Positions 18,155-33,360 of a stretch of DNA of 33,434 nucleotides are shown one piece after another. Numbering within the stretch: the stretch's first letter is position 1; the number at the start of each line of letters is the position of its first letter. Source of the stretch: Pelosinus fermentans (lineage in GTDB: Bacteria; Bacillota; Negativicutes; DSM-13327); contig DJJR01000070.1 of assembly GCA_002434245.1 (NCBI GenBank), forward strand, positions 2,536 to 35,969. Direction: 5' to 3'. The position numbers were made by a program, and so were the translations under genes. Under the pieces are notes generated by a model. The model saw only the letters and a program-made list of their open reading frames with translations. It was not told where the DNA came from and searched no databases.

Positions 18155-18183
18155 TTGACTATTGGAAAGTTTTATGTTAAAGT
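18155..18183 (+). promoter_or_regulatory. Probable promoter of the first nitrogenase-like pair
   Basis: TTGACT (18155-18160) and TAAAGT (18178-18183) are spaced by 17 nt. Transcription would start near 18190, about 18 nt before the leader element. Confidence 0.6.
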
Positions 18184-18207: not shown

Positions 18208-18266
18208 GCTGATCAGGAGACTGAAGGCAAAGAAAATGAATTATTTTCTTTGCCTTCAGTCTTTTT
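18208..18266 (+). promoter_or_regulatory. Leader attenuator element, copy 1
   Basis: GCTGA (18208-18212) is followed by the mini-hairpin TCAG-GAGA-CTGA (18213-18224) and AGGC (18225-18228). A near-perfect terminator stem has its 5' arm at 18219-18237, its 3' arm at 18243-18261 and then five T. The terminator's 5' arm contains the 3' arm of the mini-hairpin, so the two structures exclude each other, as expected of an attenuator. A further small hairpin, CAAATC-AGAAA-GATTTG, lies at 18267-18283. It sits about 95 nt before the D-like gene. Confidence 0.75.
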
Positions 18267-18361
18267 CAAATCAGAAAGATTTGATCCAAGCAGTATGTTT
18301 CTTGTATTTGCATTATAGATTGGCTGGTGGGTTAAAGAACTTTTAATATGGAGGATACGTG

Positions 18362-19849
18362 ATGAGTTACTTTTTGCAGAAAGAACCGCCAAGGCGAGAA
18401 CAGCGCTTAAATGCATGTATTGCTAGCGGTGGAAATTTGTCGGATATGACGAATCGGAAAATGAGATGTTGTGTACCAGATGGAGAGAGGACATTTACCC
18501 AAAATAATATCTGCTTATTGCTGCCAGCTTTAGGGATGATGAATAGTATACCGAATAGTGTTGTGCTGATGCATGGAGCAGTGGGGTGTGGATCTTCCTC
18601 TCATGGTGGAAATGTAGGAGTTCGAGCTGGAAATAATCACCGCTGGGGTGTGATTAAAGATGGTACATGGCTTTCGACGGCTTTAAATGAGAGCGATGTA
18701 ATCTGTGGGGGCGAAGAGAAATTAGAAGCTGCTATTCGTGAAATTGATGAACATTATAAGCCGATGATTGTCTTTGTTGTAACTGGCTGTGTACCAGGGA
18801 TTATCGGTGATGACGTTGATGGTGTTGTTCAACGTATCCAACCGGAGATCGCTGCTAATATTCTTCCAGTACATTGTGAAGGATTTAAAACAAAGATATG
18901 GGCTACAGCCTATGATGCGGTGTACCATGCTATCGGCAGGGTCATGCTGCAGGATACATCTGAAAACTTAGCTTTGAAAAAGCCGGAAAAGGCTACCGTA
19001 AACCTTATGAATGTTTCTTCTATGGGGCGGGTAGATGAACTTGAATTGGAACGGTTACTGCATACTTTAGGATTAGAGGTTAATATCTTTCCCGTATTTT
19101 CTAAACCTGAGAAAATGTATGCCATGACCCATGCAGATCTTTCGATTAGCACATGTCCCACTCATGATGATTACTTATTAAAACATTTGCAAGAGAAATA
19201 TGGGATTCCTTTTGTGTTAAAACATATGCCGATCGGTATTGGCAATACGAGTGAATGGCTAAGAAATGTAGCTGCCTTTTTTCAACTAGAAAATCAGGTA
19301 GAAAAAATCATTGAAGAAGAAGAAGCAGAGTTAGAAACAGCACTGCAAGAATTTAAAGCATTTTTTAAAGGCAAAAAAGTTTTTGTTAGCGCTGGTGAAT
19401 TTCGGGCATTGGCTACGGCTATCTTATTAGCAGAACTTGGCTTTGAAGTAGTAGCTGTCCGATCCTTTCATCATGATGAATTTGCTGATTCTGAATATGA
19501 GAAATTAAGTAAGATTACGGCAAAGGATTTCCCTTTAAATATTGCAAACTGCCAGCCTTTTGAAGAAGCAAATCTCATACGCCGTGTAAAGCCCGATCTT
19601 TTTCTTGGGCATATGAATGGCAATTCTACAGCCGCAAAATTGGGGATTGCAACGAATGTAATTTATAATGTCGGACTGCAGTTCGTTGGTTATCAGGGAG
19701 CCTATCAGCTAGCCCGCCGTTTATACAGGCAACTAACCAACCCGGGATTTAATCAAAATATTAGTAAATGGGTACAGCTTCCCTATTCTGAAGATTGGTA
19801 TCAACAAGATCCATTTGCACATATCAAACAATCGGAAGGGGAAGTCTAA
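18362..19849 (+). CDS. Nitrogenase-like component 1, D-like subunit (pair A)
   Basis: 495-aa member of the nitrogenase component-1 family. Three cysteines match the NifD P-cluster ligands: C51, C76 (HGAVGCG) and C143 (TGCVPGIIGDD). C265 in SISTCPTHDDY aligns with NifD Cys275, which binds the active-site cofactor. The place of NifD His442 holds no obvious histidine (IYNVGLQFVGYQG). CEGFKTKIW is the usual family segment. ATG 18362 is preferred over GTG 18359 because GGAGG lies 7 nt upstream. It overlaps the K-like gene by 1 nt (TAATG). It is not a normal NifD. A reductase for a substrate other than N2 is inferred from its sulfur-gene neighbours. Confidence 0.88.
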   Translation: MSYFLQKEPPRREQRLNACIASGGNLSDMTNRKMRCCVPDGERTFTQNNICLLLPALGMMNSIPNSVVLMHGAVGCGSSSHGGNVGVRAGNNHRWGVIKDGTWLSTALNESDVICGGEEKLEAAIREIDEHYKPMIVFVVTGCVPGIIGDDVDGVVQRIQPEIAANILPVHCEGFKTKIWATAYDAVYHAIGRVMLQDTSENLALKKPEKATVNLMNVSSMGRVDELELERLLHTLGLEVNIFPVFSKPEKMYAMTHADLSISTCPTHDDYLLKHLQEKYGIPFVLKHMPIGIGNTSEWLRNVAAFFQLENQVEKIIEEEEAELETALQEFKAFFKGKKVFVSAGEFRALATAILLAELGFEVVAVRSFHHDEFADSEYEKLSKITAKDFPLNIANCQPFEEANLIRRVKPDLFLGHMNGNSTAAKLGIATNVIYNVGLQFVGYQGAYQLARRLYRQLTNPGFNQNISKWVQLPYSEDWYQQDPFAHIKQSEGEV

Positions 19850-21195
19850 TGAAACATTTTATTGAAAGACCACGATTTACTTGTGCCTTAGGAGGTGCCA
19901 TCGCGACAGTTACGGCTTTGCCGCGAGCAATACATATATTACATGCTCCTCCTGGTTGTGCTGGGAACACGGCTTGGACGCAGATGGGAGGATGTGGACT
20001 TCAGGTAGGCGGATATTGTGGCGGTATTAGTATACCTGGGACGAATGTTCAAGAAAGAGAAGTTGTTTTTGGTGGCTCAGATCGACTTCAAGAACAGATT
20101 CAAAATACGCTGAAAGTAATGGATGCTGACTTGTATGTCGTCTTAACGAGCTGTGTGACAGAGATTATTGGTGATGATGTGGATTCTGTCATAGCTCCTT
20201 TTCAAAATGATGAAACCCAAATTATCTCTGCTGAGACAGGGGGCTTTAAGGGCAATTCATACCTAGGATATGAAATTGTTCTTGAAAGTATTTTAAAAAA
20301 TTATGTAACTCGTGGTGAAGCAACTGTTAAAGGCAGGGTCAATCTATGGGGTATTGCTCCATCTTTTGATGTCTTTTGGCGAGGTAATTTAGAAGGGCTA
20401 CGCCAGCTTTTAAGCAGATTGGGACTGGAAGTAAACACATTCTTTACGATGGATGATCATCTTGATGGAATTCGTCATGCAAGCAGTGCCCAGCTCAATA
20501 TCGTGGTTTCCGATGTATTTGGCTGGCAAGCTGCTAAGATCAGCCAGGAAGTACATGGAATTCCCTATGTAGTGAGCCCCCTGCCGATTGGACCTAGTGC
20601 GAGTGATTTGTTTCTGCGAAGGGTTGGTGAAGCGTTAGGTCTAAGTGAGGAATTGATTGAAGCGGTTATTACTACTGAAAATCAACGCTATTATAAACTG
20701 CTTGAACCCCTAACTGATTGCTACAATGATATGGATTTGCAGCGATATGCAGCTGTAGTGGGAGACTCTAATTATGCAACGGCCATTACTGCCTTTCTTG
20801 AAAATGATTTCGGATGGCTGCCACAGGTAATCGTCATTACGGATACATTAATGGAGGAGCAACAAGAGCGCATAGTGAATCGATTATCGAGTCTGAAATC
20901 AGGACGTATACCTAAAATTATTTTCAAAGGTGATTTGACAGATATTGCAAAAAGTATTAAAGAACATTGGGAAGGCAGCCAAACGCGATATGGAAAATAT
21001 GTAAATGCATTATCACCTGCATTTGTTGTTGGCAGCTCATTAGATCGCCCATTGGCACAAGAGTTAGGTGCTGCTCATTTAAGTATCAGTTTTCCTGTAT
21101 CCAATAGAGCCGTAATTGACCGAGGTTATACTGGCTACCAGGGCGGTTTGCGGCTGATCGAGGATCTGATTAGTGCCATTATCGTAAATCGTTAA
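19849..21195 (+). CDS. Nitrogenase-like component 1, K-like subunit (pair A)
   Basis: 448-aa partner of the preceding D-like subunit. P-cluster-type cysteines are C12 (FTCALGG), C37 (HAPPGCAGN) and C102 (TSCVTEIIGDD). AETGGFKGNSYLGYE and the C-terminal SNRAVIDRGYTGYQGGLRLIEDLI are typical of K-like proteins. The N-terminus is short, beginning only 11 residues before the first cysteine, unlike NifK with its long extension. The start is the ATG overlapping the upstream stop, which ensures equal synthesis of both subunits; a longer frame from 19795 would lie inside the D-like gene. Confidence 0.88.
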   Translation: MKHFIERPRFTCALGGAIATVTALPRAIHILHAPPGCAGNTAWTQMGGCGLQVGGYCGGISIPGTNVQEREVVFGGSDRLQEQIQNTLKVMDADLYVVLTSCVTEIIGDDVDSVIAPFQNDETQIISAETGGFKGNSYLGYEIVLESILKNYVTRGEATVKGRVNLWGIAPSFDVFWRGNLEGLRQLLSRLGLEVNTFFTMDDHLDGIRHASSAQLNIVVSDVFGWQAAKISQEVHGIPYVVSPLPIGPSASDLFLRRVGEALGLSEELIEAVITTENQRYYKLLEPLTDCYNDMDLQRYAAVVGDSNYATAITAFLENDFGWLPQVIVITDTLMEEQQERIVNRLSSLKSGRIPKIIFKGDLTDIAKSIKEHWEGSQTRYGKYVNALSPAFVVGSSLDRPLAQELGAAHLSISFPVSNRAVIDRGYTGYQGGLRLIEDLISAIIVNR

Positions 21196-21230
21196 ATTCT
21201 TTTTCTCCAGCTGCACTCGTAGCTCATAGT

Positions 21231-21292
21231 GCTGATTAGGTGAAACCTAAAGGCAAAGAAGTTTCCTTTCAGGAACGTTCTTTGCCTTTTTT
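21231..21292 (+). promoter_or_regulatory. Leader attenuator element, copy 2 (between genes)
   Basis: GCTGA (21231-21235), mini-hairpin TTAGGT-GAA-ACCTAA (21236-21250), AGGC (21251-21254), then a terminator with arms AGGCAAAGAA and TTCTTTGCCT plus an inner GTTTCC/GGAAC stem and a T-run. No good promoter is seen in the 35 nt between the preceding stop codon and the element, so it probably acts on transcripts from pair A as well as ending them. Confidence 0.75.
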
Positions 21293-21340
21293 ATTTTATG
21301 TAATATAACAAAATCGCACTTAAAATTAGGAGGGATCTGT

Positions 21341-21712
21341 ATGCCGACATACCTTAAAAAGGAACCTAATTCTACCGAATCTCAGCCAATTCAAGTTTTA
21401 GAAATTATTAATTATTTTTTACACACTGCTTATAGTGGATTTTTGATCGTATCAGTACAAGATGGATATGTTGTTAAAATGGAGAAAACAGAAAGATTTA
21501 CGATTACAGCCAAGAGCCGCCAGGGAAATTATGTGAAAATTGAGAAGCCTAAAGAGAAACATCCTCTTTGCGTACGGATATTAACAGAACTGCAAGATAT
21601 TCGTTATGGTCAGCTGATCATTCGTTTAGATAGTGGGCAAGTGGATCATTTGGAGAAAACAGAAAAAAGACGCATTCATGAATTTGAAGGGACTGATGGA
21701 GCGGGCATATAA
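21341..21712 (+). CDS. Tandem YezD/DUF2292-like small protein
   Basis: 123-aa protein that seems to hold two YezD (DUF2292) units. The first, about residues 20-56, contains FLIVSVQDGYVVKMEKTERF. The second, about 77-114, contains IRYGQLIIRLDSGQVDHLEK followed by TEKRRI. Single YezD proteins are about 55-60 aa, so this is a duplication or fusion. The function is unknown; such genes are often found beside sulfur assimilation and transport genes, which fits here. AGGAGGGAT precedes the ATG. It is the first gene behind leader copy 2. Confidence 0.75.
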   Translation: MPTYLKKEPNSTESQPIQVLEIINYFLHTAYSGFLIVSVQDGYVVKMEKTERFTITAKSRQGNYVKIEKPKEKHPLCVRILTELQDIRYGQLIIRLDSGQVDHLEKTEKRRIHEFEGTDGAGI

Positions 21713-21763
21713 AGAAGGCTTGCTGGATAGACATGAGAGCTGCTTTAGGAGGTTAGGATTAAA

Positions 21764-23087
21764 ATGTCTAATTATAAAAAAGTAACATCGAATATAATTG
21801 TTAAATTACAGATTATTGTTGGTGTAGAGCATGTATTATCAGGATCGGCAATTTTGGATCATTATGCTTATATGCGGGTACAAGGAAAGATATCTTACGT
21901 TACCCTGAAATCGTGGCCTGCCAGGAAGCTCCCAAGAAGTGGCTGAAATAATGAAATTAGCGAATAAACATTTAATACCGGTTACGCCTAGAGGGGGAGG
22001 AAGCGGTCTTGCGGGAGGTGCTGTGGCGTTAAAGGGGGGCATCCTCCTTGATTTAGTTCGTATGAATCGCATTATTCATGTAGATATTGCAGCAAAATAT
22101 ATGATCGTGGAAGCTGCTGTTCGAACTTTAGATATTCAAAATGAAGCGAAAAGACATGGTCTATTATATGCTGGAGATCCTTGCAGCAGCGACGATTGTG
22201 TAATTGCAGGAAATGTTGCTACTAATGCTGGAGGAAATAAAGCGGTTAAGTACGGCGTGACCGCTGATCAAATCTACGAGTTGGAGATCGTGACTCCGCA
22301 AGGGAAAATTCTTACTCTGGGAGGGCGGTTGAAAAAGAACTCTACTGGATACAGCTTAATTAAACTGATTGCCGGATCAGAAGGGACGCTGGGTATTATT
22401 ACTAAAATTACACTTAAATTACAAAAACTTGCTCCTTTATTGCCAAACTTCTTAGCGATATTCCCAAATCTAGCTGCAGCTGTTACTCTGGTGGAAGCAT
22501 TACTAGCAGAAAAAAATGCATTGGAGATGTTTTGCTAATTCAGTTAGAGGCTCAAAACCAAGAAGATGTAAGATTCAAGGAACTATACTTAAGAACTTTG
22601 CAGTTTACACAATTGTCTGGATATCAGGTCAATAGAAGGAGAAGCTATCTGGCGGGGGCGCAGACAGTGGGGGAAGGCACTTGAAGTAGATGAGCCTATA
22701 GGAGCATCAGAAGATCTAGTTGTGCCAGTAGATCTTATTACCCCGTTTATTCAAAACTTAGAATCATTAGCCACTTCTTTTCAATTTGACTTTCGGATAG
22801 CAGGGCATGCTGGTGATGGCAATCTGCATTTGCGTATTTTGCCTGGGACAGTGCCGATAGAGGAATGGGAGAATAAGCTTAAGGAATTCAGAGAGGTGTT
22901 GTACGCTGTTACCTATTCTCTTGGTGGGCGATTATCAGGAGAACATGGAATCGGTTTTAAACGCAAGTATTTTTTGCGTTCCGTAATACAGCCAGAAGAG
23001 CTTGAACTTATGAAGAATTTAAAGAAGGCCTTTGATCCTAATTTTATACTAAATTCAGGAAAAATATTTGATATTGATGCTAGTTAA
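21764..23087 (+). pseudogene. Decayed GlcD-type FAD-binding oxidase
   Basis: Remains of a protein of about 440 residues like GlcD of this window, spread over different frames. Recognisable parts are MKLANKHLIPVTPRGGGSG through GSEGTLGIITKITLKL (21939-22500), IEGEAIWRGRRQWGKALEVD (from about 22633), and AGHAGDGNLHLRILP plus SGEHGIGFKRKYF (to 23087). Frameshifts fall near 21885, 21917, 22530 and 22630. The original ribosome binding site AGGAGG still stands before ATG 21764. With at least four lesions it cannot make an active enzyme. It lies within the unit that begins at leader copy 2 and does not obviously block the downstream genes. Confidence 0.88.
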
Positions 23088-23117
23088 ATAAACAGTAAAA
23101 GTAAATGAGGTGATACA

Positions 23118-23954
23118 ATGAAAAATCCTTGCTTTAGCAATATTCCCCTTCATATTTTAGAACAGACACAAAAACATCCCTGCTATTCTGTAGAAGTGCA
23201 TCAACAGTTTGCTGTGATGCATTTGCCAGTTGCACCGACGTGTAATATGCAGTGCAATTATTGTAATCGCAGCTTTGATTGCATCAATGAAAACCGCCCT
23301 GGCGTAACGAGCGAAAGCTTAACTCCTGCTCTTGCTGTCGCAAACTATCGTAGCGTAAAAGGCAAAATCGCAGAACTTGGCGTGGTAGGCATTGCAGGTC
23401 CGGGAGATGCCTTAGCGGACTGGCAGCAGACAAAAGAAACCATAGAAAAAATACAAAAAATAGATCCGGACATTGTATTTTGTTTATCTACAAATGGTTT
23501 ATTATTAGCAAAATATGCATCAGAGATTATTCAGTTGGGAATTCATCATGTAACCGTTACCATAAATGCCGTGAACCCTCAGATCGGTGCGCAAATTTAT
23601 AAATTTATACTCTACGAAGGGCAGAAATATGAAGGATTAGAAGCAGCGCAGCTGCTTTATGAACAGCAGTTAGCAGGTATTGAGTATCTGGTTGCTCATG
23701 GTGTATTGATAAAGATCAATATTGTCATGTTAAAAGGCATTAACGATCAGCATATCCCAGATGTAGTAAAAAAAATGAAAGAGCTGGGGGTTTTCATTAT
23801 TAATATTATTCCGCTTATTCCTGCTACTGGAAGCCGCTTTGCAGAAAATTTTCAAGTGAGCGAACAAGAAATTAACGAAATGAGAAAACGTTGCCAATTA
23901 GACCGGCAGCAGGTGCGAGATTGCGAACAGTGCAGAGTTGATAAGGTAGGGTGA
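23118..23954 (+). CDS. nifB: NifB-type radical SAM protein (cofactor synthesis)
   Basis: 278-aa radical SAM enzyme matching the NifB core, which joins two 4Fe-4S clusters and inserts carbide to make NifB-co (L-cluster, Fe8S9C). Visible signs are MHLPVAPTCNMQCNYCNRSF with the SAM-cluster cysteines C42, C46 and C49, ENRPGV, VGIAGPGDALAD, CLSTNGL, VTVTINAVNPQIGAQIY and the C-terminal CEQCRVDKVG. There is no NifX-like C-terminal domain, so it is the minimal form. Presence beside three component-1 pairs suggests they carry an L-cluster-type cofactor. GAGGTGA precedes the ATG. It follows the pseudogene by 30 nt and precedes pair B by 63 nt. Confidence 0.92.
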   Translation: MKNPCFSNIPLHILEQTQKHPCYSVEVHQQFAVMHLPVAPTCNMQCNYCNRSFDCINENRPGVTSESLTPALAVANYRSVKGKIAELGVVGIAGPGDALADWQQTKETIEKIQKIDPDIVFCLSTNGLLLAKYASEIIQLGIHHVTVTINAVNPQIGAQIYKFILYEGQKYEGLEAAQLLYEQQLAGIEYLVAHGVLIKINIVMLKGINDQHIPDVVKKMKELGVFIINIIPLIPATGSRFAENFQVSEQEINEMRKRCQLDRQQVRDCEQCRVDKVG

Positions 23955-24017
23955 TTTGAAAAATGACTCATTAATAAATTTGTAATCTAGTAGAAATTTT
24001 AAGGATGGTGAGTATTA

Positions 24018-25484
24018 ATGTCGATCAATTTAAACATTTCTGAAGTTGCTATTCGGGAAAATCGCTTAGGGTCGGTGACGGGATACCAAGGGTCTATCAA
24101 AGAACTTGCTGCGCAAGCATCGAGTTGCTCTTTAAAGAATAAGGAAAGATGCTTTAGCCAGTCCAGCGCTTGCAGCTCCGGTTGTGCGCAAGGGTATCTT
24201 TCGAGAATTGTAGATGCTGCTATTGTTGTTCATGCGCCAATCGGTTGTGCGGCAGATAGTGTTTACAGTAATACACAAAATAAATGGGGCGAAAAGGTTA
24301 GAAACTGGAAACATAGAAATATCAATGTGATTAACACGAACATGGTAGAGGAAGATACTGTGTTCGGTGCCGTAGCTAAACTTAAAGAGGCTATACGAGA
24401 AGCATATCGGCGGTTTAATCCCAAGGCGATTTTTGTGACAACTTCTTGTGTGTCAGGAATTATAGGGGAAGACATTACGAGTGTCCTTGATGAATTAGAA
24501 GAGGAAATTCCTATTCCCTTAGCGCCGGTGTTTTGTGAAGGATTTAAATCTAAGATATGGGCATCTGGTTTTGATGCGGCGTTTCATGCAATCTTGACGA
24601 AAATTGTAAAACCCCCTCAGCGAAGGACAAACAAAGTCAATATGATCAATTTTAGCGGCAGTGCCCGAAAACAAATTGTTGAAACTCTTGCACGATTTGA
24701 CTTGGAGCCTGTATTTGTGGCACCATACAGTACGGTGGAAGAACTATCAAAGATGTCCGAGTCTGCTGCAACCATCAGTATTTGTGGAACATTAGGCAGT
24801 TATATCGGCAATGGATTGGAAGAACATTATGGAGTTCCTTATGTAAAAACCTTGCAGCCTCATGGAATTGTAGGAATGGATAGTTGGTTGCGGGGATTGG
24901 GTGCAGTAACTGGCAAGGAGCAAGAAGTAGAGGCTTATATTCGGGAAGAAAAAGAGAAGATTGCTTCTGATCTAGCAGAAATCAGGGAAAAACTCCAGGG
25001 ACATACAGCCGTTGTTGGCATGGGACCTAGCTTTGGTCATAATTATATTAGAACCATTCAAGAACTTGGGATAAAAGTGATATGGGGGGCCACATGGCAT
25101 TTTGATCCTCAGTATGATAATGGGAAAACTCCGGCGTCTACAGAACTATTGGCAAGTCAGGAAGTCGATATACCTGTTAGTGTGGGGGATCAGCAAAATT
25201 ATGAATTACTTAATTTATTGAATCGACTAAAACCTGATTTATATGTAGCACGTCATGGCGGCTCTACGGTATGGGCAACAAAATTGGGAATACCTTCCGT
25301 AATGGTTGCTGACGAGTTTAGTGCTTTTGGTTACCACGGACTCATTGATTTTGGTTATCGGCTCAGTGACGCTCTTACAAATCGCAGTCTTGCCAAAAAT
25401 TTATCCTCGCGAGTAAAAATGCCTTATACAGATTGGTGGATGGCACAAGATAGCTTTATATTCTTAGAAAATGAGGTGGTATAA
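24018..25484 (+). CDS. Nitrogenase-like component 1, D-like subunit (pair B)
   Basis: 488-aa protein, the most divergent of the three D-like subunits. P-cluster-type cysteines are C52, C77 (HAPIGCA) and C144 (TTSCVSGIIGED). C256 in TISICGTLGSY aligns with the cofactor cysteine of NifD. The region of NifD His442 reads MVADEFSAFGYHG, with acidic residues. It lies next to nifB, so a cofactor-scaffold role (NifE-like) is an alternative to an enzyme role. Retention of all cysteines in both subunits speaks somewhat against a NifEN identity, because NifN usually lacks some of them. AAGGATGGTGAG precedes the ATG. The stop overlaps the next start (TAATG). Confidence 0.87.
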   Translation: MSINLNISEVAIRENRLGSVTGYQGSIKELAAQASSCSLKNKERCFSQSSACSSGCAQGYLSRIVDAAIVVHAPIGCAADSVYSNTQNKWGEKVRNWKHRNINVINTNMVEEDTVFGAVAKLKEAIREAYRRFNPKAIFVTTSCVSGIIGEDITSVLDELEEEIPIPLAPVFCEGFKSKIWASGFDAAFHAILTKIVKPPQRRTNKVNMINFSGSARKQIVETLARFDLEPVFVAPYSTVEELSKMSESAATISICGTLGSYIGNGLEEHYGVPYVKTLQPHGIVGMDSWLRGLGAVTGKEQEVEAYIREEKEKIASDLAEIREKLQGHTAVVGMGPSFGHNYIRTIQELGIKVIWGATWHFDPQYDNGKTPASTELLASQEVDIPVSVGDQQNYELLNLLNRLKPDLYVARHGGSTVWATKLGIPSVMVADEFSAFGYHGLIDFGYRLSDALTNRSLAKNLSSRVKMPYTDWWMAQDSFIFLENEVV

Positions 25485-26806
25485 TGAGCCAGTATTCAGA
25501 ACAAGTACGACATGTATGTTCTCTTGGTGCGCTGCAGTCTGTACTGGCTATTGACAGAGCTGTTCCCATACTTCATGCAGGGCCTGGCTGCGGGCAAAAA
25601 CTCTGGGGAGCCCTAGGATTTCAAAATGGATGCCAAGGATCTGGCTATGTTGGCGGGCATTCAGTGCCGTGTACCAATATTGGTGAGAAAGAAGTCATTT
25701 TTGGCGGTGATGATCGACTGAAAGAGATTGTTGGCAATTCACTTAAGATCATTGATGCTGATTTATTTGTTATATTAACAGGTTGTACCTCTGATATTGT
25801 TGGCGATGATACAGGGGAAGTAGCTCGTCGATTCCAAGAGCAAGGCAAACCCGTTATTTATGCCGAAACGGGTGGTTTTAAGGGAACAAATCTATTTGGG
25901 CATGAACTGGTAGTGGATGCTATTATTGACCAATATTTAAAACCTGCAAATACCGTGGAACCTGGTCTTATTAACATTTGGTCTGTTGTGCCTTATCAGG
26001 ACCCTTTTTGGGTTGGGAATTTAAAAGAAATAGAAAGTCTGATTGCCCAGTTGGGGCTGACACCCAATGTTATCTTTGGACCAGGTCCAGAAAAAGGATT
26101 GGAAGCTCTTGGAAAAGTACCGAAAGCACAATTAAATGTATTGATTTCTCCCTGGGTCGGGCTAAAGAATGTTCAGCATTTGGAGGAAAAATTTAACACG
26201 CCTTACTTACATTACCCCGTATTACCCATAGGACCGACAGAGACGGCTAAATTTTTAAGAACCGTAGGACAAAATGCGGGAGTAGAAGAAAAAAGAATTG
26301 AAAAAGTGATCCAGAAGAATGAAGCGGAGTATTATTATTACATTGAACGATCAGCAGATGTTCTACTGGAGACTCGGCTGCTTCCTAGACGTTTTATAAC
26401 GATTGCAGATAGTTTTTATGCACTGGGAATTTCCAAATTCTTAATCAATGATTTAGGACTTCTTCCTGAAAAACAATATATAACCGATGGTGTTTCCGAA
26501 GAATATCAAGACAGTATAACTGCCCAGTTTAAAAATTTTGCAGACGGGATTACTGCAGATGTAGTTTTTAACAGCGATGGCGGCTCCATACATGAAGATA
26601 TTCGAAAAATGAAGTTTCGCAGCAGACCATTGATTTTAGGAAGTGCATGGGATCGAGTACTTTCGGATGAAGTGAATGGATATCAGTTATCCGTTTCCAT
26701 GCCAGTAAGCGACCGTTTGGCTTTGAATCGTTCTTATGTTGGCTATCAAGGCGCACTGCGTTTAGTTGAAGATATCTATTCTATCGTTTTGTCAGATTTC
26801 CAGTAA
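25484..26806 (+). CDS. Nitrogenase-like component 1, K-like subunit (pair B)
   Basis: 440-aa partner of the pair B D-like subunit. The cysteines expected for the P-cluster are C12 (HVCSLGA), C36 (HAGPGCGQK) and C101 (TGCTSDIVGDD). AETGGFKGTNLFGHE and the C-terminal SDRLALNRSYVGYQGALRLVEDI are family marks. The 1-nt overlap with the previous stop repeats the layout of pair A. It is the last gene of the unit starting at leader copy 2; the next promoter follows 9 nt after its stop. Confidence 0.87.
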   Translation: MSQYSEQVRHVCSLGALQSVLAIDRAVPILHAGPGCGQKLWGALGFQNGCQGSGYVGGHSVPCTNIGEKEVIFGGDDRLKEIVGNSLKIIDADLFVILTGCTSDIVGDDTGEVARRFQEQGKPVIYAETGGFKGTNLFGHELVVDAIIDQYLKPANTVEPGLINIWSVVPYQDPFWVGNLKEIESLIAQLGLTPNVIFGPGPEKGLEALGKVPKAQLNVLISPWVGLKNVQHLEEKFNTPYLHYPVLPIGPTETAKFLRTVGQNAGVEEKRIEKVIQKNEAEYYYYIERSADVLLETRLLPRRFITIADSFYALGISKFLINDLGLLPEKQYITDGVSEEYQDSITAQFKNFADGITADVVFNSDGGSIHEDIRKMKFRSRPLILGSAWDRVLSDEVNGYQLSVSMPVSDRLALNRSYVGYQGALRLVEDIYSIVLSDFQ

Positions 26807-26814
26807 GAAGACTC

Positions 26815-26842
26815 TTGACAAGAAAATTAATTGCTGTATAAT
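26815..26842 (+). promoter_or_regulatory. Strong promoter before tandem leader elements
   Basis: Consensus TTGACA (26815-26820) and TATAAT (26837-26842) with a 16-nt spacer. Transcription would start near 26849, about 17 nt before leader copy 3. Confidence 0.8.
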
Positions 26843-26865
26843 GAAATAAATGTTATTATATTCTA

Positions 26866-26933
26866 GCTGATCAGAGAAGCTGAAGGCTAAAGTATTTTGC
26901 TGTTAGCAGAATACTTTAGCTTTTTTATTTTTT
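26866..26933 (+). promoter_or_regulatory. Leader attenuator element, copy 3
   Basis: GCTGA (26866-26870), mini-hairpin TCAG-AGAAG-CTGA (26871-26883) and AGGC (26884-26887). A long terminator stem follows (GCTAAAGTATTTTGCT with AGCAGAATACTTTAGC, loop GTT) and then six T. First of two elements in tandem before pair C. Confidence 0.78.
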
Positions 26934-26974
26934 AAATTAGGTATTAGCTAGAAAAATAATAAGGAAATTTAATC

Positions 26975-27059
26975 TATAATGAAGTTGACTGATCGGCAGA
27001 CCATGCCGAAGGCAAAGATAGTTCTTTCTGTATAGAAAAGAATTTTCTTTGCTTTTTTT
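26975..27059 (+). promoter_or_regulatory. Leader attenuator element, copy 4, with possible second promoter
   Basis: CTGA (26989-26992, preceded by A instead of G), mini-hairpin TCGGCA-GACCA-TGCCGA (26993-27009) and AGGC (27010-27013), then a terminator with outer arms GCAAAGA (27012) and TCTTTGC (27046) and seven T. A TATAAT stands at 26975-26980 without a good -35. If it is used, the RNA would start almost at the element, so read-through from copy 3 seems more likely as its source. Confidence 0.72.
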
Positions 27060-27092
27060 AATAAGTTAGAAAATAGTATTTTCTAACTTATT
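27060..27092. repeat. Perfect 16-bp inverted repeat before pair C
   Basis: AATAAGTTAGAAAATA and TATTTTCTAACTTATT are separated by one G. It begins right after the T-run of leader copy 4 and ends 32 nt before the ribosome binding site. In RNA it would be a long AU-rich hairpin at the new 5' region; in DNA it would be a dimer-binding palindrome. It is not followed by a T-run. Confidence 0.7.
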
Positions 27093-27136
27093 GATGCGAA
27101 CCATTTGCAGATAGTAATGATTATGGAGGCAAGTAT

Positions 27137-28477
27137 ATGAGCAATTTTATCGACAGACCACGTTATTTATGTACTATGGGAGGGGCGGTTTCAACGCTAA
27201 AAGCACTGCCGAGAGCGATCTCGATTATTCATGCAGCCGCTGGCTGCGGCGGTAATATCGGCAATGCATTAAACGGCGCTGCTGGCTACTTGGGAAGCGG
27301 ATATTGTGCTGGTCTAGCATTACCCAGTTCCAATGTTTATGAAAGAGATATTGTATTTGGTGGTGAAGAGCGATTAGAAGAGCAAATTGCCAGTACATTA
27401 GAAATTGTTGATGGAGATCTGTATTTTGTTGTTACAGGGTGTATGGTGGATATTATCGGCGATGATGCAGTGTCCGTAGCCAGACGATTTAATCAGCAGG
27501 GAAAACCGGTTTTTGCAGCTGAAACAGGGGGATTTAAAGGAAATGCATACAATGGATATGATATTGTTCTGAGCACATTATTTAGAGAATTTGTGGAAAA
27601 AAAACCAGTAAAAAATAAAAAGATTGTAAACTTATTCGGTTTGGTTCCTATCCAAGATGTATTTTGGAAGGGAAACTTAAATGTATTAAAGGATTTAATT
27701 CAAAAATTAGGATACAAAGTAAATACCTTTTTTGGTGAAGGAGAAACCATTGAAAATTTAAAACAAGCTGGTGAAGCTCATTTTAATATTGTGGTATCTG
27801 ACGTCTATGGAGTTAAATCGGCGAAAATATTTGAAGAAGTTCATGACGTGCCCTATATTGTTGCAAACTTGCCGATTGGTCCTGCTGGTACAAAAGAGTT
27901 CTTAGAGACAGTAGGCAAAGCGCTAGGGGTTGATGAGCTGCTGGTTTCAAATGTAATAGCAGAAGAAAAAGCCCGTTATTACAGCTATGTAGAACGGTTG
28001 GCTGATGTATACAATGATTTGGATTTTCAGCGTTATAGCGTAGTGGTTGCAGATGCAAATTATGCTCCAGCACTAACAAGATTTATTGCTGATGATTTAG
28101 GATGGCTGCCGGAATTAGTTGTAATTACAGATATTCTTTCCGAAGATGAGGAAAAGCTGGTCGCAGAGAAATTTACTGCGTTTTCATCCGGTGTCACTCC
28201 CAAAGTGGTGTTTGATACGGATACTTCCAATGTAAGCAAACATTTTAATAAAGCATGGCCGCGTAATAATAATAATCGCTATTTTAATGCTTTTAGTCCA
28301 GCATTTGTTTTTGGCAGCAGCTTGGACAGAGAATTTGCCGATAGCCTAGGAGCTGCTCATTTAAGTGTATCCTATCCCATATCCAACCGGGTTGTTTTGG
28401 ATCGTGCCTATTTAGGCTATAGCGGATCCTTACGTTTAATTGAAGATGTCATAGGATTATTAGTAGGAAGCAGATAA
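27137..28477 (+). CDS. Nitrogenase-like component 1, K-like subunit (pair C)
   Basis: 446-aa K-like subunit, clearly closest to the one in pair A (compare NFIDRPRYLCTMGGAVSTLK with HFIERPRFTCALGGAIATVT). P-cluster-type cysteines are C12, C37 (HAAAGCGGN) and C102 (TGCMVDIIGDD). Here the K-like gene comes first and the D-like gene second, the reverse of pairs A and B. GGAGG lies 8 nt before the ATG. It is the first gene behind the two tandem attenuators. Confidence 0.88.
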   Translation: MSNFIDRPRYLCTMGGAVSTLKALPRAISIIHAAAGCGGNIGNALNGAAGYLGSGYCAGLALPSSNVYERDIVFGGEERLEEQIASTLEIVDGDLYFVVTGCMVDIIGDDAVSVARRFNQQGKPVFAAETGGFKGNAYNGYDIVLSTLFREFVEKKPVKNKKIVNLFGLVPIQDVFWKGNLNVLKDLIQKLGYKVNTFFGEGETIENLKQAGEAHFNIVVSDVYGVKSAKIFEEVHDVPYIVANLPIGPAGTKEFLETVGKALGVDELLVSNVIAEEKARYYSYVERLADVYNDLDFQRYSVVVADANYAPALTRFIADDLGWLPELVVITDILSEDEEKLVAEKFTAFSSGVTPKVVFDTDTSNVSKHFNKAWPRNNNNRYFNAFSPAFVFGSSLDREFADSLGAAHLSVSYPISNRVVLDRAYLGYSGSLRLIEDVIGLLVGSR

Positions 28478-28492
28478 GAGGAGGATTTTTAT

Positions 28493-30001
28493 ATGGATTA
28501 TATTAAAGAAAAAGCACCACCTGTGCGGGAAGAACGATTGCGGGCTTGTAATGCATATGGTGGCTCTTGTGGAAATTTAGTAGAGAAGTCTAAAAAAGGA
28601 TGCCTGAATGGGATTAAAAGAAAGTTTTCCCAAACCCAAGGGTGTCAACTGAATCTAAGCTTGGCAATTATCAATACCATTCGAGATGCTGTCGTCATTG
28701 TTCATGGTCCTGTTGGCTGCGGCGGTGCTAGCCTGGCCCAGGCCGGTGTGAATAAGGGGTTTCAAAAACTACGGGATAGCAGTGCCCGAGGACTTCTATG
28801 GGTGAATACAAATATGGGGGAAAACGAGGTTGTCCAAGGGGGAGAGTCTAGGCTAAGAGAAGCTATATTGCATGCAGAAAAGGAGTTTCGCCCCAGTGCG
28901 ATTATCATTGTAAATAGCTGCGTACCAGCGATTATTGGTGATGACATTGATGGAGTTGTTGAGCAGGCACAAAAGGAAGTCAAAGCCAAAATCGTCCCTG
29001 TTCATTGCGAAGGATTTAAGACCAAGATCATGGCCAGTGCTTATGATGCTGTCTATCATGGCATACTTCGTAACTTAGTTCCTCACGAGAAAATCGTTCA
29101 GGATGAAAAAAGTGAATTAGAAGCATTGCAAGAAAAGTACCGCACAAGTCGCACAGTTAATGTATTGAATGTATCTTCTATGAGTCGTATTGATGAGTAT
29201 GAATTAGTCCGTTTATTGAAAGCAATTGACTTGGAATTAAATATTCTTCCTTGTTATGCTCATCCAAATGATTTTCAAAAAGCCACTGAAGCTGCTTTAA
29301 ATGTAAGCATTTGTGCTACTCATGATGATTATTTTGTAGAGCACTTAAAAGAAAAATATGATATTCCTTTTATTCTTCGTACGATTCCCATTGGTGTTAA
29401 ATATACCAATCGATGGATTTTAGATATTGCTAAATTCTTTGGAGCTGAAGAGGCTGCTCAGCGTTTTATTGATCAAGAAGTAAAACAGCTAGAAGAAGCC
29501 ATTGCTCCCTTTAGAGATATATTCAAAGGGAAGAGAGTATTAATTGGCGGTGGTGAAATTCGCGTTGTTGCCAATGCAGAACTATTACATTATTTGGGGT
29601 TTGAGATTATCGGACTAAGAGCATATCATTATGATCAATTTGCCGATGAAATGCTCGGTGAACAGGATATTATTACACAAATTCCTTTTAATGTTGCAAC
29701 AGGTCAACCTTTTGAACAGGCAAATCTAAATCACAATTTAAAGCCGGACTTATATGTTGGTCATGTGAATACGAATGTGTGGGCTGCCAAACAAGGAATT
29801 CCAGTAATACCTTTGTTTCACCAAAGTCAACTATTCTTAGGCTACACTGGAATTTACGAATTTGCCAGACGTTTAGCCAGAATACTGCGGAATCCTTCTT
29901 TTAATCGCAATTTAAAAGATAATGTTCATCTTCCTTACTTTGAAGAGTGGTATGACAAGGATGCCTTTTCCTATATTGATGAAAGCGAGCTGCAGGCCTA
30001 A
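28493..30001 (+). CDS. Nitrogenase-like component 1, D-like subunit (pair C)
   Basis: 502-aa D-like subunit related to that of pair A ([20 protein letters not shown] against SSMGRVDELELERLLHTLGL). P-cluster-type cysteines are C51, C76 (HGPVGCGG) and C143 ([11 protein letters not shown]). C274 in [10 protein letters not shown] aligns with the cofactor cysteine of NifD. Near the C-terminus [14 protein letters not shown] offers a histidine in the area of NifD His442, which the other two D-like subunits lack. GAGGAGG precedes the start, 15 nt after the K-like stop. The cysteine synthase gene follows by 19 nt, so they share a transcript. Confidence 0.88.
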
Positions 30002-30020
30002 AAAAAAAGGAGTGGTATAT

Positions 30021-30950
30021 ATGTCCAAAATTGCAAATAGCGTAACAGATTTAATCGGTCAGACACCTTTGCTAAAGTTGAATCGAGTGGCAGAGGGAAC
30101 GGCAGCTGAAGTTGTCGTGAAACTTGAATTATTCAATCCAGGCGGCAGTATCAAAGATCGTATCGGTTTTAGTATGATCAAAGATGCAGAAGAAAAAGGC
30201 CTAATAAAAAAAGATACTGTAATCATTGAACCAACCAGTGGTAATACAGGGATTGCTTTGGCCCTTATTGCAGCAGCCAGAGGATATCGTTTAATCTTAA
30301 CCATGCCAGAAACAATGAGTACAGAAAGACGCAGCTTACTTAAGGTTTACGGTGCTGAATTGGTACTGACACCGGGCGCTGAGGGAATGAAAGGTGCTGT
30401 ACGTAAAGCAGAAGAATTAGCAGCTCAAATTCCAAATTCTTTTGTACCTCAGCAATTTAATAATCCTGCAAATCCTGAAATTCATCGAGCTACAACCGCA
30501 GAAGAAATTTGGGAGGATACGAATGGAAAAGTTGATATTGTCGTGGGAGGCGTGGGTACTGGTGGTACAATCACTGGTGTAGGTGAAAATCTAAAAAAAC
30601 GGAATCCCAATATTAAAATTGTGGCTGTAGAGCCTTTTGATTCTCCTGTTCTTTCGGGAGGCCAGCCGGGACCTCATAAAATTCAAGGGATTGGTGCTGG
30701 ATTTTTACCGAATGTATTGAATCTGGATATTGTAGATGAGATCTATAAAGTCAAGAATGAAGAAGCGTTAGAAATTGCTCAGCGATTAGCAAGAGAAGAA
30801 GGAATTCTCGTAGGCATTTCATCAGGAGCAAGTGCTTTTGCAGCGCTGCAGATTGCCAGTCGTCAGGAAAACCAAGGTAAGCTGATCGTTGCTGTACTCC
30901 CGGATACAGGTGAAAGATATATTAGTACGGCTCTGTTTGAGGATAATTAA
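30021..30950 (+). CDS. cysK: Cysteine synthase family PLP enzyme
   Basis: 309-aa O-acetylserine sulfhydrylase-type enzyme that joins sulfide (possibly another thiol) to an activated serine. The PLP lysine lies in [12 protein letters not shown], the substrate loop is [12 protein letters not shown], and the phosphate-binding loop is [13 protein letters not shown]. The C-terminal [10 protein letters not shown] and [10 protein letters not shown] segments match CysK. The start at 30021 is behind AAGGAGTGG; a longer frame lies inside the D-like gene. Sitting 19 nt behind a nitrogenase-like pair, it could capture the reduced sulfur product (inference). Confidence 0.93.
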
Positions 30951-30977
30951 TACTAAGAATGAATAAGAATCAGTGGT

Positions 30978-31007
30978 CAAGTTTCTAATTATGGGAACTT
31001 GGCTTTT
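30978..31007 (+). terminator. Possible weak terminator after cysK
   Basis: CAAGTTTC pairs with GGAACTTG (one G-T pair) across an 8-nt loop, followed by GCTTTTGGTTT. The T-run is interrupted, so partial read-through into metN is likely. Confidence 0.5.
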
Positions 31008-31058
31008 GGTTTAGATTATGGAGATTACATCATTGTTGGTAAAGTGAGTTGAATACAA

Positions 31059-31838
31059 ATGATAAGGATTCAAGAATTAAGCAAGATGTATATAACACCC
31101 AGTTCCAAAACCGTTGCACTGGAAAATGTAAATCTGCAAATTCAGCAGGGGGATATCTTTGGTATTATCGGCTTTAGTGGCGCAGGAAAATCAACTCTAA
31201 TTCGCTGCTTAAATCGTTTAGAAGAACCTGATTCCGGAAAAATAATGATTGCGGGTCAAGATATTACTGCTATGAATAAAAAAGAATTACAATTGGCAAG
31301 AAGAAAGATCGGGATGATTTTTCAGCAATTCAACTTATTAGATGCGAAAACAGTATTTGAAAATGTAGCTTTTCCGTTACAGGTTTCGAATTACCCTAAA
31401 AAACAAATTAAAACTCGAGTAGAAGAGATTCTGGAGCTGGTTGGTTTAGCGAATAAGTCCAAGGCATATCCATTGCAGCTCAGCGGAGGACAAAAGCAAA
31501 GAGTCGGTATTGCACGTGCTCTTTCTAATGAACCGAGTGTGCTGCTTAGTGATGAAGCTACTTCGGCCCTTGATCCTCAAACAACCTATTCCATTTTAGA
31601 ATTATTAAAAGATATCAATCAAAAATTAGGGTTAACCATTGTTTTAATTACCCATGAATTAGACGTCTTAAAACATATTTGCAATCATATGGCTGTTATT
31701 GAGCATGGAAAAATAGTTGAAACAGGAGTAGTGGAAAAGTTCTTTTTAAATCCTGAAAGTGATACTGCTAAACGCTTTATTAGCATTCTTCAAGGGTTCC
31801 AAGAAAAAAGAGTATATAAGGAGGGAGAGGGCATTTGA
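31059..31838 (+). CDS. metN: Methionine-type ABC transporter, ATP-binding protein (short form)
   Basis: 259-aa importer ATPase. Walker [16 protein letters not shown], signature [15 protein letters not shown] and Walker [14 protein letters not shown]; the phrases [12 protein letters not shown] and [13 protein letters not shown] are typical of MetN. It ends at about 259 residues, whereas most MetN proteins have about 340 with a C-terminal NIL/ACT domain for methionine feedback. That sensor domain is absent, so the transporter may be uncontrolled by methionine or carry another sulfur compound. The ribosome binding site is weak (AAAGTGAG). It overlaps metI by 4 nt. Confidence 0.88.
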
Positions 31839-32503
31839 ATGATGATGTATTAGACCTATTGTTTACTGGTCTTGGCGAAACTCTTTATATGGTATTATTA
31901 TCGACTCTTATTGCCTTGATTCTTGGATTGCCCTTGGGAATTATATTAGTTGCTACTGAAAAGGGGAACATTCTTGAATCGCCTAGAATTAATAAAGTAT
32001 TAGGTACCATTATTAATGTGGTACGATCCTTTCCTTCTATTATTTTAATTGTTGTGCTGCTTCCTTTGGCTCGATTTATTGTGGGGACGACATTGGGGGC
32101 AACAGCAGCTATTGTTCCCTTATCCATTGGTGCAGCGCCTTTTATTGCAAGAATTATTGAGAATAGCCTTAAGGAAGTCAGCTTTGGTAAAGTTGAAGCT
32201 GCGATGGCTATCGGAGCAAATCCTTTCACCATTATTACAAAAGTATTAATTCCAGAAGCTTTGCCATCTCTTATCCGTGGTCTAACGATTGCTGTTATCG
32301 GAATTACTGGCATGACGGCGGTTGCAGGAGCGATTGGTGCAGGAGGTCTGGGGAGTCTTGCTATACGATTTGGGTATATGAGATACCGAGATGATATTAT
32401 GCTGGCCACCATTGTAACGCTAGTTATTCTTGTTCAAGGTGTGCAATTTGCTGGAGATTATTTGGCTACCTGCATTAATCGGAAACGATACAAATTTGAT
32501 TAA
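31835..32503 (+). CDS. metI: Methionine-type ABC transporter, permease
   Basis: 222-aa membrane protein with five to six helices of the MetI type. [20 protein letters not shown] at the N-terminus, [20 protein letters not shown], and the ATPase-contact loop around [23 protein letters not shown] are visible. The start is TTG, overlapping the metN stop by 4 nt and preceded by AAGGAGGGAG. ATG codons just after are in another frame. The substrate-binding lipoprotein MetQ, normally next, is missing in the window. Confidence 0.9.
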
Positions 32504-32699
32504 AGAGGCAGCGTTCAGTAAATTCAGTCCCCATACGATATGGATTTTTTGCAGGGTATCTGCTTTCGCCTTTTTTGGCTGGGGATCTTTGGTGTATGGC
32601 TAAAGGAGGACGGGGATTTGCAGTTATCTATGCCCTGTTGGAGTGCTGCAAAGTGGCAAAAGTAGATGACCAGGAGTCGTGATAAGGAGATTTGCAAGT

Positions 32700-33203
32700 A
32701 TGAAAGTAAAACAGGTTTTTTCAGCATATAATTTTCAAGAAAGAAATTCTTTGTGTAATCGATATTGCTCAGTATGCGGTGAAAAATGTGTGAAAAAAGA
32801 AGCGGGTGGAAGAGAAAGAGATAGTTGCCCTGCATGTGGCTTTGTTCATTATGAAAATCCTTCGCCAGCGGTATCCGTCTTGTTGGTAAAGGATGAAAAA
32901 GTACTTTTAGGCAAACGAGCTCATGGCAGCTTTAAAGAAGGGTTATGGTGTTTGCCTTGTGGATTTATTGAATTTGATGAAGATTTTCTAACAGCTGCAA
33001 GACGGGAAGTTCAGGAAGAAACAGGTCTTATCAGTGAGATCGAATCAATTATTAGCGTAATGTCTAATTATTTAACTCCTAATTTACATACCGTAGTAGT
33101 TGTTTTATTAGCTCATGTTATTGGTGGTGAACTTTCAATTGCATATAGCAAATCAAAATCGTATATAATGATTGTTAGGTATAATCTATATCTGAAGAAG
33201 TAA
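32700..33203 (+). CDS. Zinc-ribbon Nudix hydrolase, C-terminus apparently shortened
   Basis: 167-aa protein. An N-terminal zinc ribbon (C23, C26, C43, C46 in YCSVCGEKC and SCPACGF) precedes a Nudix domain with a complete Nudix box at about 88-110 (G, E94, R102-E103, E106-E107, G109). It would hydrolyse a nucleoside diphosphate linked to another group; the substrate cannot be told. After HVIGGELSI the usual D-x2-E and W-F segment is absent and the end (SKSKSYIMIVRYNLYLKK) looks unrelated, as if the last 20-40 residues were lost. Start ATG 32700 has GGAGA 9 nt upstream; a GTG at 32679 is less likely. Confidence 0.75.
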   Translation: MKVKQVFSAYNFQERNSLCNRYCSVCGEKCVKKEAGGRERDSCPACGFVHYENPSPAVSVLLVKDEKVLLGKRAHGSFKEGLWCLPCGFIEFDEDFLTAARREVQEETGLISEIESIISVMSNYLTPNLHTVVVVLLAHVIGGELSIAYSKSKSYIMIVRYNLYLKK

Positions 33204-33222
33204 AATAAAAAGCAAAGATCTA

Positions 33223-33251
33223 TTGACAGAATGTATATAGTCGTTTATAAT
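33223..33251 (+). promoter_or_regulatory. Strong promoter at the right edge
   Basis: TTGACA (33223-33228) and TATAAT (33246-33251) with a 17-nt spacer, a consensus promoter. Transcription would begin near 33258, about 38 nt before leader copy 5. Confidence 0.8.
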
Positions 33252-33295
33252 TCGAAAAAAGAGATAGTACTTTTAAACGATAATAACAAGAACTT

Positions 33296-33360
33296 GCTGA
33301 CTGGATAAACTAGAGGCAGATTTTTTCACTTTGAAAACTTCTGCCTCTAATTTTATTTTT
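33296..33360 (+). promoter_or_regulatory. Leader attenuator element, copy 5
   Basis: GCTGA (33296-33300), mini-hairpin CTGG-ATAAA-CTAG (33301-33313) and AGGC (33314-33317), then a terminator with arms AGAGGCAGA (33312-33320) and TCTGCCTCT (33340-33348), an inner TTTTC/GAAAA stem and a T-rich tail. The gene it should control lies beyond the window. Confidence 0.75.

Follow-up and report, generated by a model that had tools for sequence, protein, structure and literature searches.

Introduction

Several described regulatory systems act through a terminator in the leader of the genes that they control. In the ribonucleic antiterminator (RAT) systems of BglG, SacY and LicT, a short hairpin is bound by a protein that contacts its internal loops, the bound hairpin blocks an overlapping terminator, and one antiterminator can serve several operons. 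With the ANTAR proteins NasR and AmiR, leader RNA and protein together control an overlapping terminator, the target being two tandem hairpins with conserved hexaloops, and the S-box, or SAM-I riboswitch (SAM, S-adenosylmethionine), controls methionine and cysteine genes by termination. For LoaP and its dfn target, the available text describes a small leader hairpin with a UNCG tetraloop, placed upstream of terminators, which lets a dedicated protein pass them (PMC12691694). This article describes a very small leader element that occurs five times in a 33,434-nt stretch of the Pelosinus fermentans genome (assembly GCA_002434245.1, contig DJJR01000070.1, positions 2,536 to 35,969 of the forward strand). 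This whole stretch is referred to as the window, and positions are given in its own numbering.

The element is probably the antiterminator half of a transcription-attenuation switch in a sulfur-starvation regulon, with the small protein YezD/OscA (DUF2292) as the most likely binder. This reading is built on a hairpin, its covariation, its overlap with a terminator, the regulon, the co-occurrence with yezD and the operon order, all of which were observed in the sequences. The accessible parts of two reports describe OscA as a small protein of unknown function linked to sulfur starvation, and in Pseudomonas oscA and a sulfate-binding-protein gene (sbp) form one transcription unit (PMC2996968, PMC3596284). 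In Bacillus subtilis, according to the accessible part of a further study, deletion of yezD did not reduce viability in deep starvation (PMC6385201).

Structure of the element

All five copies lie on the plus strand, where a first-pass annotation made from the sequence had placed a repeated leader design. Counted from the G or A of (G/A)CTGA to the C of AGGC, they occupy 18208-18228 (copy 1, GCT-GA-TCAG-gaga-CTGA-A-GGC), 21231-21254 (copy 2, GCT-GA-TTAGGT-gaa-ACCTAA-A-GGC), 26866-26887 (copy 3, GCT-GA-TCAG-agaag-CTGA-A-GGC), 26988-27013 (copy 4, ACT-GA-TCGGCA-gacca-TGCCGA-A-GGC) and 33296-33317 (copy 5, GCT-GA-CTGG-ataaa-CTAG-A-GGC), copies 3 and 4 being the first and second of a tandem. Predicted hairpin energies for copies 1 to 5 are -6.4, -6.8, -5.1, -9.7 and -4.9 kcal/mol, respectively. 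The annotation gave the common start as (G)CTGA, which holds for four copies, copy 4 beginning with ACTGA; it also described hairpin arms that differ in sequence while remaining complementary, and the arms are as described, with one G.U pair in copy 5.

The consensus, GCY-GA-[4-6 bp hairpin]-A-GGC, is 21-26 nt long, with an intrinsic terminator directly 3' whose 5' arm starts from AGGC. The annotation had overlooked some two dozen other copies elsewhere in the genome, and also the pairing of the flanks with each other: 5'-GCU and 5'-GGC form a lower helix of 3 bp (with U.G or C-G), above which G-A faces a single A. Unprompted, RNAfold folded the leading 21-24 nt of copies 1, 2, 3 and 5 into (((..((((....)))).))) or a longer form of it, and copy 4 into the same fold minus the outermost pair, where it has A and C.

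Each copy runs straight into its terminator hairpin, as had been claimed. The terminators, all on the plus strand and with energies calculated from AGGC, lie at 18219-18261 for copy 1 (20 pairs and a T tail; -15.7 kcal/mol), 21250-21288 for copy 2 (-19.7 kcal/mol), 26882-26924 for copy 3 (-22.1 kcal/mol), 27010-27054 for copy 4 (-17.2 kcal/mol) and 33311-33349 for copy 5 (-14.8 kcal/mol). A simple pattern scan recovered those of copies 1 and 3 only, and all five were seen by folding; for copies 1, 3 and 5, part of the mini-hairpin's 3' arm also belongs to the terminator. Because the terminator starts at AGGC, it needs the same GGC as the lower helix and the two cannot coexist, a competition that marks the element, on its predicted folds, as an antiterminator/terminator switch. 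The hairpin (-4.9 to -9.7 kcal/mol in the five copies) is weaker than the terminator (-14.8 to -22.1 kcal/mol), so that termination would be the default unless the hairpin is held. Beyond the window, the terminator starts within 2 nt of the A of AGGC at 114 of 120 distinct sites in one set (A3) and 108 of 114 in another (A7), compared with 11 of 101 and 7 of 108 controls taken 250 nt upstream.

Structural conservation was analysed on core-only alignments, with the terminators left off. Across groups (112 distinct rows) pairing in the inner helix is complete (100%), and three of its four pairs show two-sided changes (39, 37 and 22 rows); the outer helix is 99.1% paired, G-C being replaced by A-U in four rows and U.G by C-G, a one-sided change, in ten; these percentages lean upward, since most loci were fetched by a model match that included the inner pairs. 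Paired cells, cells with two-sided changes and the covariation score all lie above those of all 500 shuffles, and in slid registers pairing drops to 19-54%. In a set led by Negativicutes (111 rows), four of five covariation measures exceed all shuffles. The outermost pair is broken in five rows of this set, copy 4 among them, and three more copies (L370, L382 and L387) read AACUGA...AGGU(U), again with A-U for G-C. The internal-loop G, the opposing A and the next two Gs are present in 111/111 rows and the internal-loop A in 108/111; the apical loop is A-rich, mostly 3-8 nt long and of no fixed sequence. When the arm condition was dropped, complementary 4-nt arms were found at 153 of 220 flank-plus-terminator sites, some of the failures being true copies read to a second AGG, and the mean with shuffled partners was 66. 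One early covariation count used hand-picked copies. One locus search covered 100 loci within L010-L146 (without L022, L033, L039-L066, L074, L075 and L142-L146), and a later one covered 100 chosen loci, among which the Bacilli yezD loci were mainly ones already known to hold a copy.

Two covariance models were used in the searches: R1, built from 15 core sequences, and R2, which includes both helices. R2 picks exactly the five copies in the window (30.1, 24.1, 33.0, 17.9 and 26.3 bits for copies 1 to 5; E 3e-7 to 0.007) and its next match has E 0.86, which excludes chance; copies 1, 3, 4 and 5 were outside the R2 seed, the rows of which were gathered by R1, whose own seed held all five.

Promoters with 12/12 agreement to the consensus stand 24 nt 5' of copy 3 (26815-26842, TTGACA-16-TATAAT) and 45 nt 5' of copy 5 (33223-33251, TTGACA-17-TATAAT), both on the plus strand. 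A promoter-like site 25 nt 5' of copy 1 (18155-18183, plus strand, TTGACT-17-TAAAGT with TG before the -10) agrees at 9/12 positions, a level at which the consensus scan expects a mean of 1.0 such site per region by chance. Copy 2 follows the stop codon of the preceding nitrogenase-like gene by 35 nt; the consensus scan of 21150-21345 found no promoter for it. Another weak 9/12 site lies between copies 3 and 4, so that passage of RNA polymerase through both attenuators is not certain. The contig ends with the window, which places the gene of copy 5 beyond the contig end.

No family of Rfam release 15 matched the element at gathering score in the window, in the selected loci or in 20 loci of the Pelosinus genome, and below that score only microRNA-family or NsiR1 matches lay over the elements. 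Searches of open-licence PMC literature, with subscription papers outside their reach, showed no account of the element or of an RNA or antitermination role for YezD. Judged by sequence comparison, the element is an undescribed cis-regulatory RNA, in agreement with the first-pass annotation.

Distribution and the genes downstream

In the Pelosinus genome (4.55 Mb), which has about 29 copies, R1 gave 31 matches at E<=1. Among the best 30 of these, 28 are closely followed by an open reading frame (ORF) in the same orientation; the other two are copy 5, at the end of its contig, and the lowest-ranking match, inside an opposite-strand ORF. All ten genomes of the family, this one included, are positive, with 1-25 matches each at E<=0.01, and the many copies in relatives covary in both helices. 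Neither this result nor the Rfam comparison refutes the first-pass reading. Of 300 Negativicutes genomes, 62 are positive with R1 and 70 with R2, the R2-positive ones spanning 38 of 91 genera and holding up to 21 copies each; in Bacilli R1 is positive in 19 of 348 genomes, 18 of them credible, while the match in the remaining one (G560) adjoins a phage-like gene and is probably due to chance. These class-wide searches used stricter filters, by which weak matches were lost. A scan of named genomes for the core-plus-terminator pattern gave at least 116 stretches, their spread being a sample of carriers, which include Pelosinus, Sporomusa, Propionispora, Anaerospora, Heliophilum and Deltaproteobacteria metagenome-assembled genomes (MAGs), as well as Priestia, Peribacillus, Lysinibacillus, Niallia, Metabacillus and Fictibacillus in the Bacilli. 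Five matches among 80 of the at least 116 loci lie inside a same-strand ORF of at least 100 codons, and some pattern-scan matches, for example in Butyrivibrio, are probably due to chance.

The first genes behind the element were tallied for the Negativicutes-led set (98 distinct, after 6 short spurious ORFs of 104 were left out; one protein may match several Pfam families). PALP (CysK type) and ATP-binding cassette (ABC) permeases occur 10 times each, and DUF2292, with 9, is third commonest, followed by the class I/II aminotransferase fold (8) and Cys/Met pyridoxal-phosphate enzymes (7); NifH, SBP_bac_3 and NMT1-like proteins have 4 each, and sulfite reductase, nitrogenase component 1, URO-D and the NIL domain (MetN type) have 3 each. 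Further downstream genes, named by eye, are presumably those of MetNIQ, MetY, cystine-type transporters, a sulfate-binding protein, a sulfonate ABC system, a TauE-like permease and a LarE-like protein, and in Bacilli those that we take to be CysH, SUMT, SbpA and an SsuD-like protein; a ThiS gene was recognised by eye and by a further check. Some have no obvious link with sulfur, as with LoaP at L096, a ROK regulator at L112, a Nudix protein at L029 and a TonB receptor at L030. In Negativicutes, Bacilli, Heliophilum and the Deltaproteobacteria MAGs alike, the predicted regulon mostly serves the uptake, assimilation and salvage of sulfur. The first-pass annotation had guessed at a sulfur or nitrogen signal: its sulfur half is upheld by these genes, and nitrogen control was rejected, the downstream genes being mostly sulfur genes and the nitrogenase-like genes of the window falling below the nif, vnf and anf cut-offs.

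Association with YezD/OscA

DUF2292 is encoded in all 70 R2-positive Negativicutes genomes vs 43 of the 230 R2-negative ones (113/300 overall; Fisher 9e-39, uncorrected for phylogeny), and by genus in 38/38 positive vs 6/53 negative. With R1 the count is 61 of 62 positive genomes, the exception (G028) being one weak match that R2 does not confirm. The Bacilli give 18/19 R1-positive vs 120/329 R1-negative genomes, and among the named carriers DUF2292 is present in 26 of 28, the exceptions being a genome of 1.7 Mb and the Butyrivibrio carrier, whose match falls within an ORF.

The two are also neighbours. In R1-negative Bacilli a copy lies just 3' of yezD at 22 of 40 loci, often in a variant form (GCCGA, CCGG arms), and these 40 loci gave 26 sense and 0 antisense matches against a shuffle expectation of 0.53. 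Among selected loci the element is found within 260 nt downstream of 52 of 66 yezD ORFs, and within 61 nt of 41; the order yezD-element-sbp, with sbp named by eye, occurs at L328, L329, L355 and L361. The Pelosinus genome has two yezD genes behind element copies, one at L011 and the other in the window behind copy 2 (21341-21712, plus strand; PF10055, 1.2e-9, over cut-off), which encodes a tandem YezD/OscA-like protein, the proposed antiterminator. A third yezD precedes a copy (L024).

A single YezD domain of about 50 residues is predicted to form one helix and two strands (predicted local distance difference test, pLDDT, 85.6) and carries the conserved stretch QDGKVIQIEKxEKxR; this modelled fold and the stretch are compatible with nucleic-acid binding and no proof of it. 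At the loci seen, most YezD proteins of Negativicutes consist of two DUF2292 units in tandem and have a conserved G-D/E-G-I tail, and most of those of Bacilli consist of a single unit. AlphaFold models of the tandem form (6 sequences only) have a mean pLDDT of 51.5.

An S-box stands upstream of 23 of the 66 yezD ORFs of the selected loci, and is combined with a downstream element in 21 of the 66, a tally from selected and partly redundant loci (L162 = L289; L184 = L293 = L303) and not from a random sample. The riboswitch lies directly 5' of yezD at L317 (1778-1883), L301, L324, L329, L081, L179 and others; the order S-box - yezD - element is seen in many Bacilli and at three Negativicutes loci. 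At L081 (1054-1530, genome G076) S-box, yezD, element and ABC transporter form one cassette, and no other sampled genome of genus g5 is positive for yezD or the element, which suggests horizontal transfer of the cassette. These S-box matches lie upstream of yezD, and the RF00162 aptamer (about 108 nt) was not found in the element itself.

Proposed mechanism

Soon after initiation, the nascent RNA would fold into GCY-GA-[hairpin]-A-GGC. When sulfur is plentiful, the unaided weak hairpin would lose its GGC to the terminator and transcription would stop. Under sulfur limitation, an RNA-binding protein would hold the hairpin, probably through the conserved G.A/A internal loop and the helices on either side of it, keeping AGGC from starting the terminator so that polymerase reads into the operon. 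We infer the direction of control, the signal and the binding of the hairpin by YezD, the protein most likely to hold it. In the many Bacilli and the few Negativicutes in which yezD stands behind an S-box, low SAM would lead to YezD being made, and YezD would pass this signal on, both to the operon that it belongs to and to isolated copies at other sites. What the arrangement of S-box, yezD, element and sulfur operon suggests is that low SAM permits YezD, which would in turn open adjacent and distant terminators. As two yezD genes of the Pelosinus genome lie behind the element, positive feedback is predicted there.

We lean, if only somewhat, towards a broader proposal: that YezD/OscA is the first of a new class of RNA-binding antiterminators of very small size, by which a riboswitch read-out becomes a diffusible protein signal that opens many terminators, and that related YezD-RNA pairs may exist wherever oscA precedes sbp, as in Pseudomonas. 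If true, one riboswitch would command a trans-acting sulfur-starvation regulon via a tiny antiterminator, a widespread protein family of unknown role would gain a function, sulfur starvation would be answered by a global RNA-level regulon in Negativicutes and many Bacilli, and nitrogenase-like sulfur-salvage genes would come under a named control. The pair, an RNA of about 24 nt and a protein domain of about 50 residues, is directly testable and could serve as a compact transcription switch.

A number of observations weigh against the mechanism proposed here. The element has no R2 match in 43 of the 113 DUF2292-positive Negativicutes genomes and no R1 match in 120 of the 138 DUF2292-positive Bacilli genomes. 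At 20 yezD loci of R2-negative Negativicutes a copy follows yezD, by 27-125 nt, in 3 and most are without one; a copy near yezD is absent from 18 of the 40 Bacilli loci; and at five plasmid loci with DUF2292 (two of Novosphingobium and one each of Paenibacillus, Priestia and Niallia) the element occurs in Niallia only. YezD must thus do more than serve this element, or bind other RNA elsewhere. It could also be an obligate target or partner and not the binder, and DUF2325 associates as well, more weakly. A PDB sequence search with YezD gave 0 matches to solved structures, and Foldseek with the single domain gave 305 matches at E<=10 and none at <=0.001, the best 50 of the 305 including MADS-box domains at a template-modelling (TM) score of about 0.4-0.5, which is not significant. 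Neither the window nor 20 loci of the Pelosinus genome, two distal yezD genes included, gave a match to the S-box (RF00162). Two covariation measures are undistinguished: in the 112-row set the count of pairs with two-sided change is matched by 112 of 500 shuffles and the number of pair types by 500 of 500, and in the 111-row set pair types are not above the shuffles (250/500). 

Alternative explanations

Another RNA-binding protein, DUF2325 or an unnamed one, may bind the hairpin, with YezD as a partner or constant target. DUF2325, a further member of the regulon, has genes that adjoin yezD or follow the element (L011; G067 contig 58; L336, L340 and L342), and it is present in 47 of the 70 Negativicutes genomes with an R2 match; NusA or a similar general factor could take part as well. 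DUF2325 nevertheless falls below cut-off in the other 23 of the 70, DUF2292 in none, and we consider this explanation rather unlikely. As the binder, DUF2325 was rejected because it is missing from those 23 genomes. Where its genes were seen, one lies between a tandem element and yezD in the Pelosinus genome (L011 1654-1947) and others directly 3' of yezD in some Bacilli (L336, L340 and L342), possibly as functional partners. LoaP was likewise rejected, as one copy precedes loaP and the Pelosinus genome (83.5% complete) holds only distant NusG relatives, the best at 31% identity; among the ten family genomes, one has a relative at 47% identity. The copy in question (L096 255-282, genome G025 of the Negativicutes) is followed, after about 240 nt, by a true LoaP gene (524-1027).

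The first-pass annotation had offered two readings, a target bound by an antiterminator protein and a small riboswitch, and the almost strict co-occurrence with DUF2292/YezD favours the former. As a very small metabolite or ion riboswitch, the element would have its GA/A hairpin stabilised by O-acetylserine, a thiol, a SAM precursor or sulfide, YezD being merely a constant member of the regulon. Conservation is indeed strictest at the internal loop and the adjoining GG, the overlap of hairpin and terminator resembles riboswitch expression platforms, and the same form is kept in distant groups. About ten strongly conserved positions without a fixed apical loop are nevertheless little for an aptamer, the element being smaller than any natural one that we know of, and a riboswitch would leave both the presence of DUF2292 in every R2-positive Negativicutes genome and the adjacency of yezD and element unexplained. 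We regard it as improbable.

A DNA operator for a sulfur repressor, with the terminator incidental, is very improbable. The commonest form holds CTGATCAG, a perfect DNA palindrome (TCAG/CTGA arms are found at 82 of the 220 sites), and copies 1 and 3 lie about 25 nt past a -10 box; yet the palindrome is lost and hairpin pairing retained in CTGATTAG..CTAA, CTGACCGG..CCGG, CTGACTAG..CTAG and other forms, which led to rejection of the operator, and the element nearly always runs into a terminator from AGGC, all 26 matches near yezD are on the strand of the gene, and copy 2 is intergenic with no promoter found. That the copies are ordinary terminators of upstream genes fronted by a chance hairpin is scarcely credible and was rejected: some do lie close behind a gene (copy 2, and the yezD-element arrangement), but conserved sequence and covariation 5' of the terminator, the 12/12 promoters directly 5' of copies 3 and 5, the tandem copies and the sulfur genes downstream all speak against it.

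Gene content of the window

The gene run, on the plus strand, consists of nitrogenase-like pairs, yezD, a nifB-like gene, cysK, metN and metI. Behind copy 1 lie nitrogenase-like component 1 genes of NifD/E type (18359-19849; PF00148, 1.5e-82) and NifK type (19795-21195; PF00148, 2.5e-69). Downstream of yezD are a NifB-like radical SAM protein gene (23118-23954; TIGR01290, 363.6 bits, cut-off 343.65) and a second nitrogenase-like D/K pair (24018-25484 and 25484-26806; PF00148), and behind both tandem attenuators a third pair (27137-28477 and 28493-30001; PF00148), followed by cysK for cysteine synthase A (30018-30950; TIGR01139, 483.8 bits, over cut-off). A MetN-like ATPase and a MetI-like permease of a methionine-type ABC transporter (31059-32503) were recognised by eye from the translation.

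The nitrogenase-like genes score below every listed nif, vnf, anf and bch cut-off and are probably, by their sequences, relatives of methylthio-alkane reductases. These enzymes serve sulfur salvage, as the accessible part of one study states (PMC12552129), and the available text of another links MarHDK homologues with methyl-sulfur genes (PMC10418091). Between 18359 and 30001 three D/K pairs and a NifB-like gene were seen and no NifH; NifH-like genes stand elsewhere in the genome behind element copies (L017 and L019). The adjacent plus-strand ORFs at 21939-22538 and 22722-23087 resemble, by eye, halves of one GlcD-like FAD-linked oxidase gene, which is either broken or split by a sequence error. 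Just 5' of copy 1, an ORF of 198 residues (17496-18092) has no Pfam or NCBIfam match and looks helical-repeat-like by eye. In another locus (L030), a cobalamin riboswitch (1857-2040; RF00174) lies on the opposite strand and adjoins a weak element match before a TonB-receptor-like gene.

Comparison with known systems

The S-box precedes yezD in many of these operons, and the element is about a fifth of its size. ANTAR targets differ in being two tandem hairpins with fixed hexaloops, whereas the element is a single hairpin of 4-6 bp whose loop, mostly 3-8 nt long, has no fixed sequence. Unlike dfn, it has a variable, A-rich loop without a UNCG tetraloop and overlaps its own terminator. The order yezD-element-sbp recalls the oscA-sbp unit of Pseudomonas. 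The nearest likeness is to RAT and LicT, in that the hairpin overlaps the 5' arm of the terminator and the two are mutually exclusive, a resemblance in how the element works and not in membership. The RNA consensus of RAT is another one, and its regulon is one of sugars where this one is of sulfur. No CAT/PRD protein regulated by the phosphotransferase system (PTS) is implicated here, though no search for PF03123 was made, and the candidate is a domain of about 50 residues with one predicted helix and two strands. The element works like RAT/LicT attenuation while standing outside every family tested.

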